DNA from: Stigmatella ashevillena
GTDB taxonomy: Bacteria > Myxococcota > Myxococcia > Myxococcales > Myxococcaceae
Assembly (NCBI RefSeq): GCF_028368975.1
Contig: NZ_JAQNDM010000001.1
Location: 1-64,000 of the forward strand
Reading direction: 5' to 3'
Length of the DNA stretch: 64,000 nt
This document shows, one piece after another, positions 8,079-13,866 of this stretch; the stretch's first letter is position 1, and every line of letters begins with the position of its first letter. A program made the position numbers and the translations under genes. The notes under the pieces are model-generated. The model worked only from the letters and a program-made list of their open reading frames with translations, did no database searches and was not told the DNA's origin.

Positions 8079-10082
8079 TCAACGCCTCGGGGCGGGTTTG
8101 AACTTCTGCTCGATGGCCCGCGTCTTGCCTCGCTCGAAGCGCAGGCGGAACTCGGCCCGCTCCCCGGTGGCCAGGGACTCCAGGGCGATGAGCCGGTTGC
8201 CGGGCTTCACCGGGTAGCGGATAAGCGGCGTGCGCCGCTTCACCGGGACACCATCGATGAAGACCCGCGCGGGAGTATCGGAGCGCAGGGTCAAGAAGGC
8301 GGGATGGGCGGGCACGGGCGCCGACCCCTCCTCGTCCACGGCTGGTTCACGGGCCGCTGGAGGAGGAGACGCAGGGAGGGCCTGCACAGGGGATGGCTCG
8401 TGGAACGGGGACACGGTGACACCGGCAGGAACTGCCTGAGGCACCTCCACGGGGGGCGGCGGCGCCGACGGCTCACCGGGGGGGGAGCGCTCCCAGGTGG
8501 CGAGCACGAAGGCGAACATGCCCACCAGCACGAGGGCCCCCACGAAGCCCAGGGCGCGGTGCTGACGGCGCGCGATCTTCAGGAGGTTGAGTTCCTCGGT
8601 GAGAAGCCTCCGCCGCCCCACCGCGGGGACTGCCTCTTGGGTGGGCGGCGGCATCGGAATCTCAGGCCGCTCCTTCACGGGAGACGGATGCGAGGGTGTG
8701 GTGGCCGGGACGTCACGGACGGCGAGCCGTCGCCTGACGGACGTCGAAGGCTCGTCTGGCGCCTCCTCCGCGGAGGCCCCGTCCGAGCCGCCCTCGATCC
8801 ACTTGAGCCGGGGGTTGCGGCCGACGCGCGTGCCCTCCTTGGACCCCGTGATGCCCCCCAGGGGGACGAGCTGCTTGCGAGGCGGCGTGGCCACGGCGCC
8901 GGCGGGCGCATCCCAGTGCGCCTCCTCGGGCGCCTGGGGCGTGGGCGACGTGGTCTCGTTCTCGGACACGGGCTCGGACACGCCTGCGCGCAGGGGATCC
9001 AGGGCACCGGGGCCTTCCGGCGTGTATTCCTCGAAGGCAGGGGCGGACTCCTGGGTCTTCGCGAAGGTCTCCTCCTCGCTCAGCGCCGGGCTGAACGGCG
9101 TGCGCACCACCACCGAGACGTCCAAGGGCTCGGCCCGCAGGTGGGAGATCTCCGCCCCGGAGACGGGGGTGAGCGTGAAGGGCTCGGAGAAAGGCACGGG
9201 CCCGAGCGTGGTGAAATTCACCTCGTTGGGAACCAGTTCCCGGATGAACCGGCGCAGATCCTCCACGCCCGGCATGCCCCCGTGCGAGGCCAGGAAGTTG
9301 CGCAGCCCGCCAGCGAACTCCCCGGCCGAGCGGAAGCGCCGCTGGGGGAGCGGATCCAACGCGCGCAGGATGACCGGATCCAACCGGGAGTTGATGCGGC
9401 GATCCAGACGGCTCGGAGGAGGCAGCCCATCCCGGCGGGTGCTGAGGCCACTGCCCACGACGAGGGCCTCGCGCAGGGTGAGCAGCTCGTAGGCGATGGC
9501 GCCCAAGGAATAGATGTCCGACAGCTCGCTGGGCTCCTCTCCCCGGCCCACCTCGGGGGCGCGGTAGGCGCTGCGACCGCGGGTGGCGAAGGCGCGCTTG
9601 AGTTCGGGCACCGCCATCAGGGCCTTCAGCGCCCCGAAGTCGCAGATCCCAGGGACGCCCTCGCGGGACAGCAGCAGGTTGCCCGGGGTGATGGCGCCAT
9701 GGATGACCCCCACCTCGTGCGCTCGCTGCACGGCATCCAGCAATTGGATGACGAGGTGCAAGGCCAGGGCGGAGGGAAGGAGGACCTCCTTCGTGTTGAG
9801 CCGCTGGAGCGCCGTCCCCAGGGTGAAGCCGTCCACATGCTCTCGCACCACCGCGAGCCGCTGCTTCACGAAGCCCATGTCCACCACGGGGACGATGCCC
9901 GTAGGACGCAGGGGGTTGAGCACCCGCGACGTGTCGGCCAGGACCCGGGCGTAGGCGGGATCCGAGGTCTTCGCATGGAAGAGCTTCACCACCACGCTGC
10001 CCCCCGCCTCCTGGGTGGCCTGGTAGAGCTCGGCGAGATCTCCTGACTCGACCCGGCCTGTGAGCCGGTAGGAAGCGCTCAT
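8079..10082 (-). CDS. Membrane-anchored Ser/Thr pseudokinase with PEGA domain
   Basis: The 667-residue protein has a eukaryotic-type kinase fold at about residues 5-285: Lys33 in VVVK, DFG at 148-150, APE at 175-177 and the F-helix Asp189. The catalytic loop, however, reads HGAITPGN (128-135), so the HRD aspartate is Ala130, and the glycine loop is degenerate. It is therefore probably a pseudokinase. A Pro/Ser/Glu-rich linker leads to one transmembrane helix (about 510-530), a second Pro-rich linker and a PEGA-like domain (about 595-662). It is coupled upstream (ATGA) to a zinc-ribbon coiled-coil gene and sits directly before the response regulator. A binding or scaffold role is inferred. Confidence 0.9.
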   Translation of the reverse strand: MSASYRLTGRVESGDLAELYQATQEAGGSVVVKLFHAKTSDPAYARVLADTSRVLNPLRPTGIVPVVDMGFVKQRLAVVREHVDGFTLGTALQRLNTKEVLLPSALALHLVIQLLDAVQRAHEVGVIHGAITPGNLLLSREGVPGICDFGALKALMAVPELKRAFATRGRSAYRAPEVGRGEEPSELSDIYSLGAIAYELLTLREALVVGSGLSTRRDGLPPPSRLDRRINSRLDPVILRALDPLPQRRFRSAGEFAGGLRNFLASHGGMPGVEDLRRFIRELVPNEVNFTTLGPVPFSEPFTLTPVSGAEISHLRAEPLDVSVVVRTPFSPALSEEETFAKTQESAPAFEEYTPEGPGALDPLRAGVSEPVSENETTSPTPQAPEEAHWDAPAGAVATPPRKQLVPLGGITGSKEGTRVGRNPRLKWIEGGSDGASAEEAPDEPSTSVRRRLAVRDVPATTPSHPSPVKERPEIPMPPPTQEAVPAVGRRRLLTEELNLLKIARRQHRALGFVGALVLVGMFAFVLATWERSPPGEPSAPPPPVEVPQAVPAGVTVSPFHEPSPVQALPASPPPAAREPAVDEEGSAPVPAHPAFLTLRSDTPARVFIDGVPVKRRTPLIRYPVKPGNRLIALESLATGERAEFRLRFERGKTRAIEQKFKPAPRR

Positions 10083-10375
10083 TCCTTCCCCGCGCGGCGC
10101 CGGACGGCGGCGAAGTGGAAGCCGCACCAGACGCACGCATCGCCCCGGCGGCCCTTTGGCAGCTCCAGGGTGCACCCCGGGCATCGGGGGCGGGGCTTGC
10201 CCGGCGCCTCGCGCTTGGCCGATGAGGATGCGCCAGAACGGGCACGCACGGCGGTGGCGGCGCGCCGCACATGCAGCTCCAGCTGCCGGACCCGGTCCTC
10301 CAGGGCTTCGATTCGAGCGGACAGCCGCGCATGGATCTCGGCGTCCGCGGACTGACGTCTGGCAGGAGACCGCAT
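10079..10375 (-). CDS. Small coiled-coil protein with C-terminal zinc ribbon
   Basis: The 98-residue product has an N-terminal Arg/Glu/Leu heptad region (about residues 8-40, IEALEDRVRQLELHV) predicted to form a coiled coil, a basic linker, and a compact zinc ribbon built from CPGC and CVWC. Such proteins can dimerise and bind nucleic acid or another protein. It heads a run of six minus-strand genes, and its TGA overlaps the ATG of the pseudokinase gene, so the two are translationally coupled. No function is established; the pairing suggests it is a partner of the pseudokinase. Confidence 0.75.
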   Translation of the reverse strand: MRSPARRQSADAEIHARLSARIEALEDRVRQLELHVRRAATAVRARSGASSSAKREAPGKPRPRCPGCTLELPKGRRGDACVWCGFHFAAVRRRAGKE

Positions 10376-10456
10376 CGGGTCCCGAAGCGTGCCACGCCCC
10401 CTCGGATACCCGCAAGGAAGACCCACGTTGAAGTGCTTGGTGAGGGGGGGCGTGTT

Positions 10457-12163
<1,707 letters not shown>

Positions 12164-12254
12164 GACGGGCCAGAGGAAATATTCCATCCTTGTCTATAGG
12201 AACGCACGCTTCGCAAAGGCACACACAGTATAATTATACCTCGCCTCAGCGATA

Positions 12255-12284
12255 ACCCTGCTCCTCTACAAGCTTGAGCAGGGT
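12255..12284. terminator. Putative bidirectional terminator hairpin
   Basis: A perfect 9-base inverted repeat, ACCCTGCTC (12255-12263) and GAGCAGGGT (12276-12284), is separated by a 12-base loop. It lies between the convergent 5'-nucleotidase and collagen-like genes. There is no strong T tract, so intrinsic termination is only inferred. Nothing else is apparent in the 222-base gap. Confidence 0.5.
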
Positions 12285-12385
12285 ATCCGCGCTATTGTTG
12301 CATCCCCGTGCGCAGGACTAGAGAGATAGCCTCCTTCTCCTTGCTGTCGGGCAGTCTCAGATTATGCCCCCAGTAGATGCTTCTC

Positions 12386-13720
12386 TTATTGCATCAAGCA
12401 ACAGATAGCATGTGCTTGCACCGTATTACTACCCTCCCGCACAGCACAGGAATATGTGTTTCCTGATACCCACGACGAAATCCCGAAATACTGGGACCCT
12501 CCCTGTTGGCAAGCTCCACCTGAAAGCCACCAAGGAGCTCCGCATGAAGCCGAGGAAGTTTTAGCGAAGCCCCCTGCTACTGGCGTACATGCAAAGCTCT
12601 TCGGAGCTCCTGGGATACCAGGGACTCCCTGAGCCCCTGGATCTCCTCTGGGTCCTTGTGAACCGGGCATTCCTTGGTTTCCTTGCGGTCCCTGATTCCC
12701 ATTACAAATATAGCGTGTCATCGTCGCATCCACCTCTGATGCGTCAAGTAGCGCATTGCGGTTGCTGTCCAGTCCGGTCTCCAGCTTTACTCCACCTGCA
12801 ACACAATTTGCTCCCCCTGCAACCGCAGTGGTTTTCGTCAATGCAGCAAAGCCCGCGTCTCCCTTGAGGCCCTGTGATCCCTGCGTTCCGTTACAAATGT
12901 AACGCGTCATCGTTGCATCTACTTCTGTTGTGTCGAGCAGCGCATTTCGGTTGCTGTCGACTCCTGTCTCCACCTTCAACCCACCCGCTGCGCAATTTGA
13001 GCCCGCTGCGACCGCAGTCGTTTTCGTCAGTGCAGACAAGCCCATATCTCCCTTGAGCCCCTGTGTCCCTTGATGTCCCACATCCCCTTTGGGCCCCTGC
13101 GGCCCTTGAAGCCCCGTATCCCCCTTGAGCCCCTGGGGCCCCTGAATCCCATCGCAGACGTAGCGCGTCATCGCGGCACTCACTTCCCAGGCTTCGAGCA
13201 GCGCATTGCGGTTACTGTCCAATCCTGTCTCCACCTTCACTCCTCCCGCTGAGCAGTTCGCGCCTGCTGCCACCACGGAGGTTTTCGTCAGCGAAGCCAG
13301 GCCGGTAGAGCCCGCTGGGCCTACTGCTCCAGGCGCTCCATCTTCGCCCTTCGGCCCCTGGGGGCCCACCGCCCCCAGAGTCAAAGCGAAGACATCCCTT
13401 TGTGAAGCCGTGCTCCCTGTCGACACCGTCAACAGGTACGAGCCGACGTAAGTGGAGAAGGTTGAGGGCAGTGAAACTGTCAGCTCCTTTCCATCGCTGG
13501 ACACCTCCGTCACGGGAACCTCCGTTCCGGCCAGCGTTACCACCGGCGCAGACCCATTGTTAAAATGGGCTCCGCTGATGGAGAGGTTCGCATTGGAATA
13601 GTCAATATCGACTCCTTCCACGAACAGCTGCGGGTCCGCCTGCGAAAATGCGGGGCCGGTGGCTAGCAGCAGTCCCATCAACAGACAACTCAACGTCACA
13701 GAAGTTCGCATCCTTGGCAT
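12386..13720 (-). CDS. Secreted collagen-like protein with three DUF7151-type repeats
   Basis: The 444-residue protein has a signal peptide (from MPRMRTSVTL to about AFSQA) and a short beta domain (about residues 28-115) of IPT/TIG type. It then alternates collagen-like Gly-X-Y stretches with three copies of a module of about 50 residues. Each copy contains LTKT, a Cys, the motif GxDSNRNALLxxxEV, and ends TRYxCxG. The D-x-N-x-N-x-L-L-D/E spacing resembles a calcium-binding loop, matching what I recognise as DUF7151. The C-terminus is a Cys-rich cap. Gly-X-Y regions may form trimeric stalks; the role is inferred to be surface or matrix. ATG 13720 is chosen; ATG 13711 is an alternative. GC content is lower than in neighbouring core genes. 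Confidence 0.85.
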   Translation of the reverse strand: MPRMRTSVTLSCLLMGLLLATGPAFSQADPQLFVEGVDIDYSNANLSISGAHFNNGSAPVVTLAGTEVPVTEVSSDGKELTVSLPSTFSTYVGSYLLTVSTGSTASQRDVFALTLGAVGPQGPKGEDGAPGAVGPAGSTGLASLTKTSVVAAGANCSAGGVKVETGLDSNRNALLEAWEVSAAMTRYVCDGIQGPQGLKGDTGLQGPQGPKGDVGHQGTQGLKGDMGLSALTKTTAVAAGSNCAAGGLKVETGVDSNRNALLDTTEVDATMTRYICNGTQGSQGLKGDAGFAALTKTTAVAGGANCVAGGVKLETGLDSNRNALLDASEVDATMTRYICNGNQGPQGNQGMPGSQGPRGDPGAQGVPGIPGAPKSFACTPVAGGFAKTSSASCGAPWWLSGGACQQGGSQYFGISSWVSGNTYSCAVREGSNTVQAHAICCLMQ

Positions 13721-13724
13721 GAAA
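13566..13724 (-). repeat. 159-bp exact direct repeat, copy 1
   Basis: These bases, covering the signal peptide and first domain start of the collagen-like gene, recur identically at 15351-15509 in the same orientation (offset 1785). The identity ends abruptly at both sides. Confidence 0.93.
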
Positions 13725-13866
13725 AACCCCGCAGCACAACAAGCACACGGCACGTTGTACTTAACTAAACCATCCCCCCATTGAGGGACAAAAACTCCGT
13801 GACTTTACTGGACTGGACTCCTTACGGCGGAAGTTTCTGTTTGGAGCGCTCTCCAAGGGAGTATTA

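Follow-up and report, generated by a model that had tools for sequence, protein, structure and literature searches.

A pseudokinase conserved beside a NarL-type response regulator in myxobacteria, and its putative non-catalytic role

The window analysed here, a whole stretch of 64,000 nucleotides (nt) of Stigmatella ashevillena DNA, carries on its minus strand a packed run of six genes. The second encodes a membrane-anchored protein with a degenerate Ser/Thr kinase domain, called PSK below, which stands between the gene for a small zinc-ribbon protein (ZR) and the gene for a NarL-type response regulator (NarL; Table 1). A preliminary description, made from the letters of the window, placed the motifs of the kinase domain correctly (K33 in VVVK, H128-G129-A130 in HGAITPGN, N135, and CDFG with D148). 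Its ATGA overlap is also there, the TGA of ZR (10081-10079) lying over the ATG of PSK (10082-10080). The start codon of NarL is found 2 nt past the PSK stop, and 7 nt separate NarL from the first gene of an M16 pair. The regulator announced after PSK, with a receiver and a LuxR-type helix-turn-helix (HTH), is recognized by Pfam (Response_reg 2.6e-25, GerE 2.5e-16). As had been said, no histidine kinase was found nearby: a scan of 14 proteins of the neighbourhood, which took in PSK, ZR and NarL, gave none, and none of the 150 HATPase_c matches scored in the genome lies inside the window (150 of 222 candidates were scored, 72 were not). The run itself had been taken to end in the M16 pair, but it ends one gene later, in an RluA-type pseudouridine synthase.

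Table 1. Features of the PSK locus in the window (residue numbers are those of PSK; TM, transmembrane)
Feature	Position	Strand	Basis or remark
5'-nucleotidase gene	start taken at ~10457		divergent from ZR
Intergenic region ZR/5'-nucleotidase	10376-10456		81 bp, divergent
ZR: short coiled coil and zinc ribbon	10375-10079	minus	98 amino acids; motifs CPGC...CVWC
PSK: pseudokinase, disordered linker, TM helix, PEGA-like domain	10082-8079	minus	667 amino acids
PSK pseudokinase domain, residues 1-290	9213-10082	minus	Pfam Pkinase 1.1e-20; AlphaFold2; Foldseek
HGA replacing HRD, residues 128-130	9693-9701	minus	HRD Asp in 0/73 orthologous sequences
TM helix, residues 510-528	8499-8555	minus	mean hydropathy 2.54 (19 residues)
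Predicted periplasmic PEGA-like beta domain, residues 591-667	8082-8312	minus	PF08308 in orthologues; models
NarL-type response regulator: receiver and LuxR HTH	8076-7420	minus	218 amino acids; intact phospho-acceptor pocket
M16a (M16 pair, first gene)	7412-6084	minus	
M16b (M16 pair, second gene)	6066-4696	minus	
RluA-type pseudouridine synthase	4699-3926	minus	last gene of the six-gene run

The AlphaFold2 model of PSK, run on an alignment of 47 orthologues, is mostly of high confidence over the kinase domain (residues 1-290, low at 214-226). With this model Foldseek retrieves PknA and PknB, the best being PknA (4ow8, E 8.2e-16, TM-score by target 0.76). The Pkinase match and the modelled fold together confirm, at the level of prediction, a Hanks-type Ser/Thr kinase fold beyond chance. 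PknA and PknB of M. tuberculosis are the best matches in both sequence and fold and share the bilobal architecture, but PSK is without their HRD Asp and aligned alphaC Glu, and its Gly loop is weak. In PknB the kinase domain is cytoplasmic and is joined by one TM helix to an outer sensor domain, a layout that PSK resembles; this outer domain is of the PASTA type, and a PEGA-like domain occupies that place in PSK.

This layout follows from the rest of the model, in which an unbroken helix (489-531) spans the TM segment and a confident beta domain covers residues 595-660. Since the N-terminal flank of the TM segment, KIARRQHR, is positively charged, the kinase domain is predicted to be cytoplasmic. 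The fusion to a TM and a PEGA domain proposed in the preliminary description is thus retained for the helix, which is predicted, and for a domain that we can only call PEGA-like. Among the orthologues, 19 of the 26 C-terminal domains reach PF08308 with E ≤0.1 (best 6e-8), and 4 of 36 full-length proteins do so at E 0.01, but the window's own C-terminal domain falls below threshold, in a genome with 42 PEGA matches at E 0.01. Structural searches with the model of this domain gave nothing at E ≤0.001 in Foldseek (best 9k1u, RtkS, E 2.8e-3), and in VIA-align a best Z of 8.5 that unrelated rows nearly reached.

The loss of the catalytic residue is not a peculiarity of the window. Our motif table holds 73 orthologous sequences from 72 genomes (L009 and L077 are both from G120) and leaves out the second, non-orthologous HRD kinase of G139 (L055) and a shortened sequence (L089). 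The residue at the position of the HRD Asp is Ala in 67 sequences; three others have Ser, two Gly and one Arg, and none has Asp. Nor does any of the 73 have Glu at the aligned alphaC position (one shows a gap there), which 11/11 comparison kinases do; these 11 were picked for an HRD-type Asp (HCD in one) and can serve as control at the remaining positions only. In 57 of the 73 an acidic residue, Glu or Asp, stands one position earlier and may, to judge from the alignment, provide a shifted salt bridge. The proposal that Ala130 in place of the HRD Asp makes PSK a pseudokinase is therefore upheld, and PSK is a conserved pseudokinase.

The other motifs have had a different fate. The window protein retains the beta3 Lys, the loop Asn, the DFG Asp and APE, and among the orthologues K33 is kept in 70/73, N135 in 68/73 and the DFG-Asp in 67/73. 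The beta3 Lys is lost in three (L171, and L179 and L180 of family f6) and the DFG-Asp in six: L042 reads EFG, the three genomes of genus g44 (L056-L058) read GLG or GMG, and L166, from another order, has HGSLGPSD in the loop and CAG in the DFG place. The sixth, L171 (G093), reads VVVE, HGRLEP and SGFG, with K33, N135 and the DFG-Asp all gone. On the evidence of these motifs, loss of the catalytic Asp is common to all orthologues, and later erosion has taken place more than once with the gene retained. As some orthologues lack the beta3 Lys or the DFG-Asp, the function that all of them share is unlikely to be a catalytic one.

The broad retention of K33, N135 and the DFG-Asp could be read otherwise, namely that PSK binds ATP and, through another base, transfers phosphate or some other group, such as AMP. 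SelO, with Hgvmntdn and DYG, is listed in Table 1 of PMC12599244 and described in that paper as an AMPylator. However, no SelO family is among the Pfam or NCBIfam matches listed for the window PSK, and the aligned alphaC Glu is gone throughout, even if an acidic neighbour is frequent. Moreover, the gene and its linkage persist in several orthologues that have lost K33 or the DFG-Asp, and the NarL that accompanies the eroded PSK of L171 is not clearly accelerated (see below). We regard residual or altered catalysis as quite improbable.

The dead domain is nevertheless maintained. Compared with its counterparts in three close congeners, the kinase domain shows 97% identity and a ratio of non-synonymous to synonymous substitution rates (dN/dS) of 0.04-0.08; for two more distant congeners the identity is 78-79% and dN/dS 0.29 and 0.19. 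In 5/5 comparisons it has the lowest value of the five PSK segments; the linker ranges over 0.19-0.72 and the PEGA domain over 0.23-0.62. By this measure the dead kinase domain is under purifying selection.

At E 1e-30, PSK has a match in 85 of the order's 145 genomes, and at E 1e-35 its kinase domain has one in 87 of 195 genomes of the phylum. The two further matches in the phylum are a syntenic orthologue (G163, L166) and an HRD kinase (G148, L167). A scan of genome contigs with the single PSK protein as query gave no match, and an alignment-based scan gave 66 loci, 19 of them non-orthologous (L138, L139 and L141-L157). Among the latter, L149-L156 come from other phyla and are kinase homologues whose loops are of the HGALTP type, perhaps independent pseudokinases; such loops are expected there, the scan having selected for that pattern.

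PSK keeps NarL as its neighbour. In the set of 60 loci L032-L091, 59 have a PSK orthologue (L055 has none), and NarL adjoins it downstream on the same strand in 58 of these, the last (L053) ending at a contig edge. The preliminary description had looked to conserved neighbourhood in related genomes as a check, and named its lack as a refutation; for PSK and NarL it is found. L166, which belongs to another order of the class, retains the arrangement nucleotidase, ZR, PSK, NarL. NarL matches at 1e-60 in 84 of the 85 PSK genomes, and the remaining genome (G140) has a 54% match next to PSK (L058). We saw no PSK without NarL among the loci and genomes examined. The reverse does occur. In order-wide tallies, NarL is found in 18 genomes that show no PSK match at threshold. 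One of these is cut by a contig end (G124, L185) and three look so from coordinates (G062, G067, G072), while seven hold a partial or diverged PSK (G090, G121, G129, G093, G039-G041). This leaves four genomes with NarL and no PSK at the locus (G042, G091, G125, G126), besides three that belong to family f2. PSK alone is missing from its syntenic place in G042 (L169) and G091 (L170), where ZR and NarL have become adjacent. PSK and ZR are both missing in G125 and G126, where NarL and M16 remain, and PSK and NarL are both missing in G086, G122, G123 and G018, where ZR and M16 remain.

This distribution bears on the simplest alternative, that the block from nucleotidase to RluA is merely conserved as such, with nothing functional joining PSK to NarL. 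The block is old, and its members are absent independently, ZR and M16 standing without PSK and NarL in the last four genomes and NarL and M16 without PSK and ZR in G125 and G126, as mere synteny allows. However, PSK and NarL stand together where either the nucleotidase or the M16 pair is not next to them (L037, L038, L062, L052, L056, L058), and the rate of NarL goes with PSK where those of ZR and M16a do not. We hold mere synteny to be very unlikely, and consider NarL, from comparative genomics, the likely partner of PSK.

NarL itself has everything expected of a NarL/FixJ response regulator: the acidic pocket, the phospho-acceptor Asp, the Thr, the Lys and the LuxR HTH. E10, D11, D56, T84 and K106 are present in 69/69 sequences, and the PSK-less sequences examined show this pocket too. 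As the pocket is intact, also where PSK is gone, the phosphate on NarL probably comes from a source other than PSK.

The genomes that have lost PSK allowed a comparison of NarL rates. NarL and nucleotidase branch lengths were compared on a fixed topology from nucleotidase and M16a, with 26 taxa and 40 branches of nucleotidase length ≥0.05. The rate tests leave out contig-edge loci and most repeats, and the test was repeated with 55 and 45 taxa. The four highest NarL/nucleotidase ratios of the 40 belong to PSK-less branches: L170 (G091) 1.66, L169 (G042) 1.38, L178 (G125) 1.01 and the stem of g23 0.94. The highest PSK-bearing branch has 0.88 and the median is 0.55. When 55 taxa are used, the same four branches rank 1, 2, 3 and 5 of 52; measured against M16a instead (45 taxa, L170 having no M16a), the three testable ones rank 1-3 of 29. 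In G042 the excess lies in the receiver (ratio 1.70) and not in the DNA-binding domain (0.78), and in G091 in both. The NarL of L171, whose PSK is eroded but present, is mid-range (rank 22/52 with nucleotidase and 11/29 with M16a), so that the presence of PSK, and not its nucleotide motifs, seems to matter.

The neighbours do not behave in this way. In a simple regression M16a of the PSK-less genomes lies inside the PSK-bearing range (z -1.6 to 2.3); three NarL-less in-family genomes are mildly fast for it (z 2.3) and the top PSK-bearing one reaches 2.8. M16b has an outlier in L183 (z 7.1). ZR rates in PSK-less loci (L169 1.09, L170 1.86, L172 1.97, L175 1.60, L176 1.10) are spanned by those of PSK-bearing tips (0.22-2.81). 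The NarL of family f2 is also fast in the regression. We nevertheless prefer the tree test, which leaves out f2 (G006, G007, G009), because that family may never have had PSK and because PSK-bearing L166 deviates in the regression. Taken together, these comparisons suggest that loss of PSK tends to go with faster NarL evolution.

We therefore come to the role of PSK. The reading we favour, with a confidence that barely exceeds even, is that PSK is a dead kinase tethered in the inner membrane, acting as a dedicated, non-catalytic regulator of the co-encoded NarL by binding it. A periplasmic PEGA-like domain, a long linker and a constrained dead domain together suggest a NarL-binding tether switched from outside. 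The PEGA-like domain would be the likely input in the periplasm, and the cytoplasmic pseudokinase domain would hold, release or present NarL by contact, with no transfer of phosphate. NarL would presumably receive its phosphate from an unlinked histidine kinase or a small phosphodonor, and control could be either inhibition by sequestration or activation by presentation. The direct contact, the periplasmic signal and the direction of control are what we infer. Of the scaffold role in the preliminary description, the non-catalytic part is the likeliest, while physical scaffolding belongs to this conditional scheme.

Several observations weigh against a PSK that binds and constrains NarL. K33, N135 and the DFG-Asp are conserved in most orthologues, and nucleotide binding may matter there. 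The PSK-less tip L177 (G126) is slow, with a ratio of 0.35 (rank 51/52 and 28/29), and the PSK-bearing L166 deviates in the simple regression (z 4.1; L052 2.6, L054 2.4). There are just three in-family loss events, four with the distant family f2, and both genomes of g23 are reduced. The rate test was devised once the losses had been seen, so with so few of them the rate evidence is suggestive and not proof. Finally, only 1 of 81 near-invariant NarL positions has changed in G042 and 2 of 81 in G091, and the speed-up thus sits in positions that are variable in any case. As a candidate face of NarL for binding PSK we considered K91 (alpha4), which is conserved with PSK and changed in 3 of 4 PSK-less lineages; two of these changes are only to Arg, and we rejected the candidate as too weak.

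The specific partner had been sought elsewhere in the preliminary description, in ZR. The four cysteines of ZR are present in 60/60 aligned sequences, and ZR has a match in 50 of the 60 loci L032-L091, in one of them (L070) displaced by ~3.5 kb. The adjacency of ZR and NarL in G042 and G091 was an initial hint of an obligate partnership. This is not sustained: ZR is present without PSK and NarL in G086, G122, G123 and G018, it is absent from some PSK genomes, and its rate is unremarkable in PSK-less branches. A W-x-A-P motif at PSK residues 390-393 (Trp in 68/73) stands amid the poorly alignable disordered linker. As a docking motif for ZR it was discarded, being kept in ZR-less L037 and L038 and lost in ZR-bearing L166 and L171. 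In L070 (G052) two repeat-rich, secreted-looking open frames lie between PSK and ZR, at 9314-12762 of that locus.

The six packed genes of the window are likely to be co-transcribed, and the preliminary description had seen in them a sensory unit which, together with the zinc-ribbon protein, controls envelope peptide processing by the M16 pair. The comparison of genomes speaks against this. No M16a orthologue is found beside PSK-NarL in 12 loci with room for it (L035, L036, L037, L038, L047, L052, L056, L058, L061, L062, L068, with a 24% match, and L081), and in three more (L040, L048, L070) other genes intervene between PSK-NarL and the M16 pair. Conversely, the M16 pair persists without PSK and NarL, and M16a in PSK-less genomes is not accelerated past the range seen with PSK. 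We consider such a unit highly improbable.

An active partner kinase has more to recommend it. An active Ser/Thr kinase whose gene lies elsewhere could phosphorylate NarL with PSK as its allosteric partner, which would either present NarL to the kinase or switch it. In 3/3 genomes of genus g44 a kinase gene lies directly upstream of PSK: L056 and L058 have, as read from sequence, HRDLKPEN and an N-terminal zinc ribbon, and the gene in L057 is 68% identical. L052, of family f7, has an upstream kinase with HRDVKPAN. These upstream kinase genes occupy the place held by ZR elsewhere. There are precedents in the consulted parts of PMC4601284, where the Hanks-type kinases Stk1 and PknH act on the response regulators VraR (listed as NarL family) and DosR; there, Stk1 and PknH are active and phosphorylate Thr, whereas PSK is dead and co-encoded with its regulator. 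A two-query search (E 1e-15), however, found no such kinase right beside PSK in the Myxococcaceae loci. From these two outgroup lineages an active kinase may be part of a wider system, and as a general explanation of PSK we think it unlikely.

The divergent region between ZR and the nucleotidase gene contains GCGTGGCACGCT at 10386-10397 (minus strand). In an alignment of 50 such intergenic regions (10 others were skipped) TGGCACGCT is conserved, and a TGGCACG core is strongly conserved in homologous nucleotidase/ZR intergenic regions; this core extended by the upstream CTTGC has a single match in the genome. We tried GCGTGGCACGCT as an operator for NarL and rejected it, as it has 4 exact genomic sites against 3 for the reversed control, and as the core is absent in NarL-bearing L166, L177, L178 and L182 and present in NarL-less G086. 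Beyond this region, a minus-strand gene for a collagen-repeat protein with DUF7151 domains (12386-13753 in the window) adjoins the nucleotidase gene.

How does PSK compare with known pseudokinases? As defined in the consulted parts of PMC12599244, five named families differ from it. The GLW pseudokinase has GLW for HRD and Leu/Trp for the beta3 Lys, where PSK has HGA and K33. In ActPs2 the Lys has become Arg, the Asp has become Asn and DFG is deleted; in ActPs3 all motifs are degraded and the activation loop carries a deletion. The window PSK is unlike both in keeping K33, DFG and APE. DLHK is its opposite, keeping the HRD Asp with degraded ATP and metal motifs and no TM helix, and CP1 is linked to COG3899 without a TM helix, whereas PSK has a TM helix and no further domain among its Pfam matches (COG models were not searched). 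By these definitions, compared from sequence, PSK is outside all five. ActPs1 and DYD are further named families there, set apart by deletions and constraints of their own. The nearest parallels in the same excerpts are MviN and EssB/YukC, which have membrane-linked dead kinase domains in non-catalytic roles, as we propose for PSK. They are, however, without all three catalytic motifs, where PSK orthologues mostly keep Lys, Asn and DFG, and their partners differ, lying in peptidoglycan synthesis and type VII secretion. M. xanthus has 99 Ser/Thr kinases and 11 reported pseudokinases according to the portion of PMC6791715 consulted; strain AM003 has a PSK orthologue (L098), which may be one of these 11. 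Our literature search, with most subscription journals outside it, found no description of PSK or its pairing with NarL, and PMC7694542 contains no occurrence of pseudokinase, NarL, orphan or PEGA.

NarL resembles the regulators of NarL-family two-component systems in its receiver, LuxR HTH and intact phospho-acceptor pocket, but its neighbouring gene codes for a dead homologue of Ser/Thr kinases, and the scans of the surroundings gave no histidine kinase. A bolder form of the binding hypothesis would make the pair a dead-kinase two-component system of this myxobacterial class, old enough for two orders to share it, in which a PEGA-sensing pseudokinase replaces the histidine kinase as the dedicated, non-catalytic sensor of NarL and its loss frees the regulator from constraint. 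This is possible, though on balance we doubt it.

In conclusion, bacterial pseudokinases are numerous and largely unexplored experimentally, to follow the consulted parts of PMC12599244, and comparative genomics here gives one of them a specific candidate partner, in a small testable unit of two soluble domains. Nature moreover supplies knock-outs of PSK (G042, G091, G125, G126), and the orthologues form a natural series from an intact to a strongly eroded ATP site. If PSK does regulate NarL by binding, a Hanks-type fold would be able to steer a response regulator without phosphotransfer.

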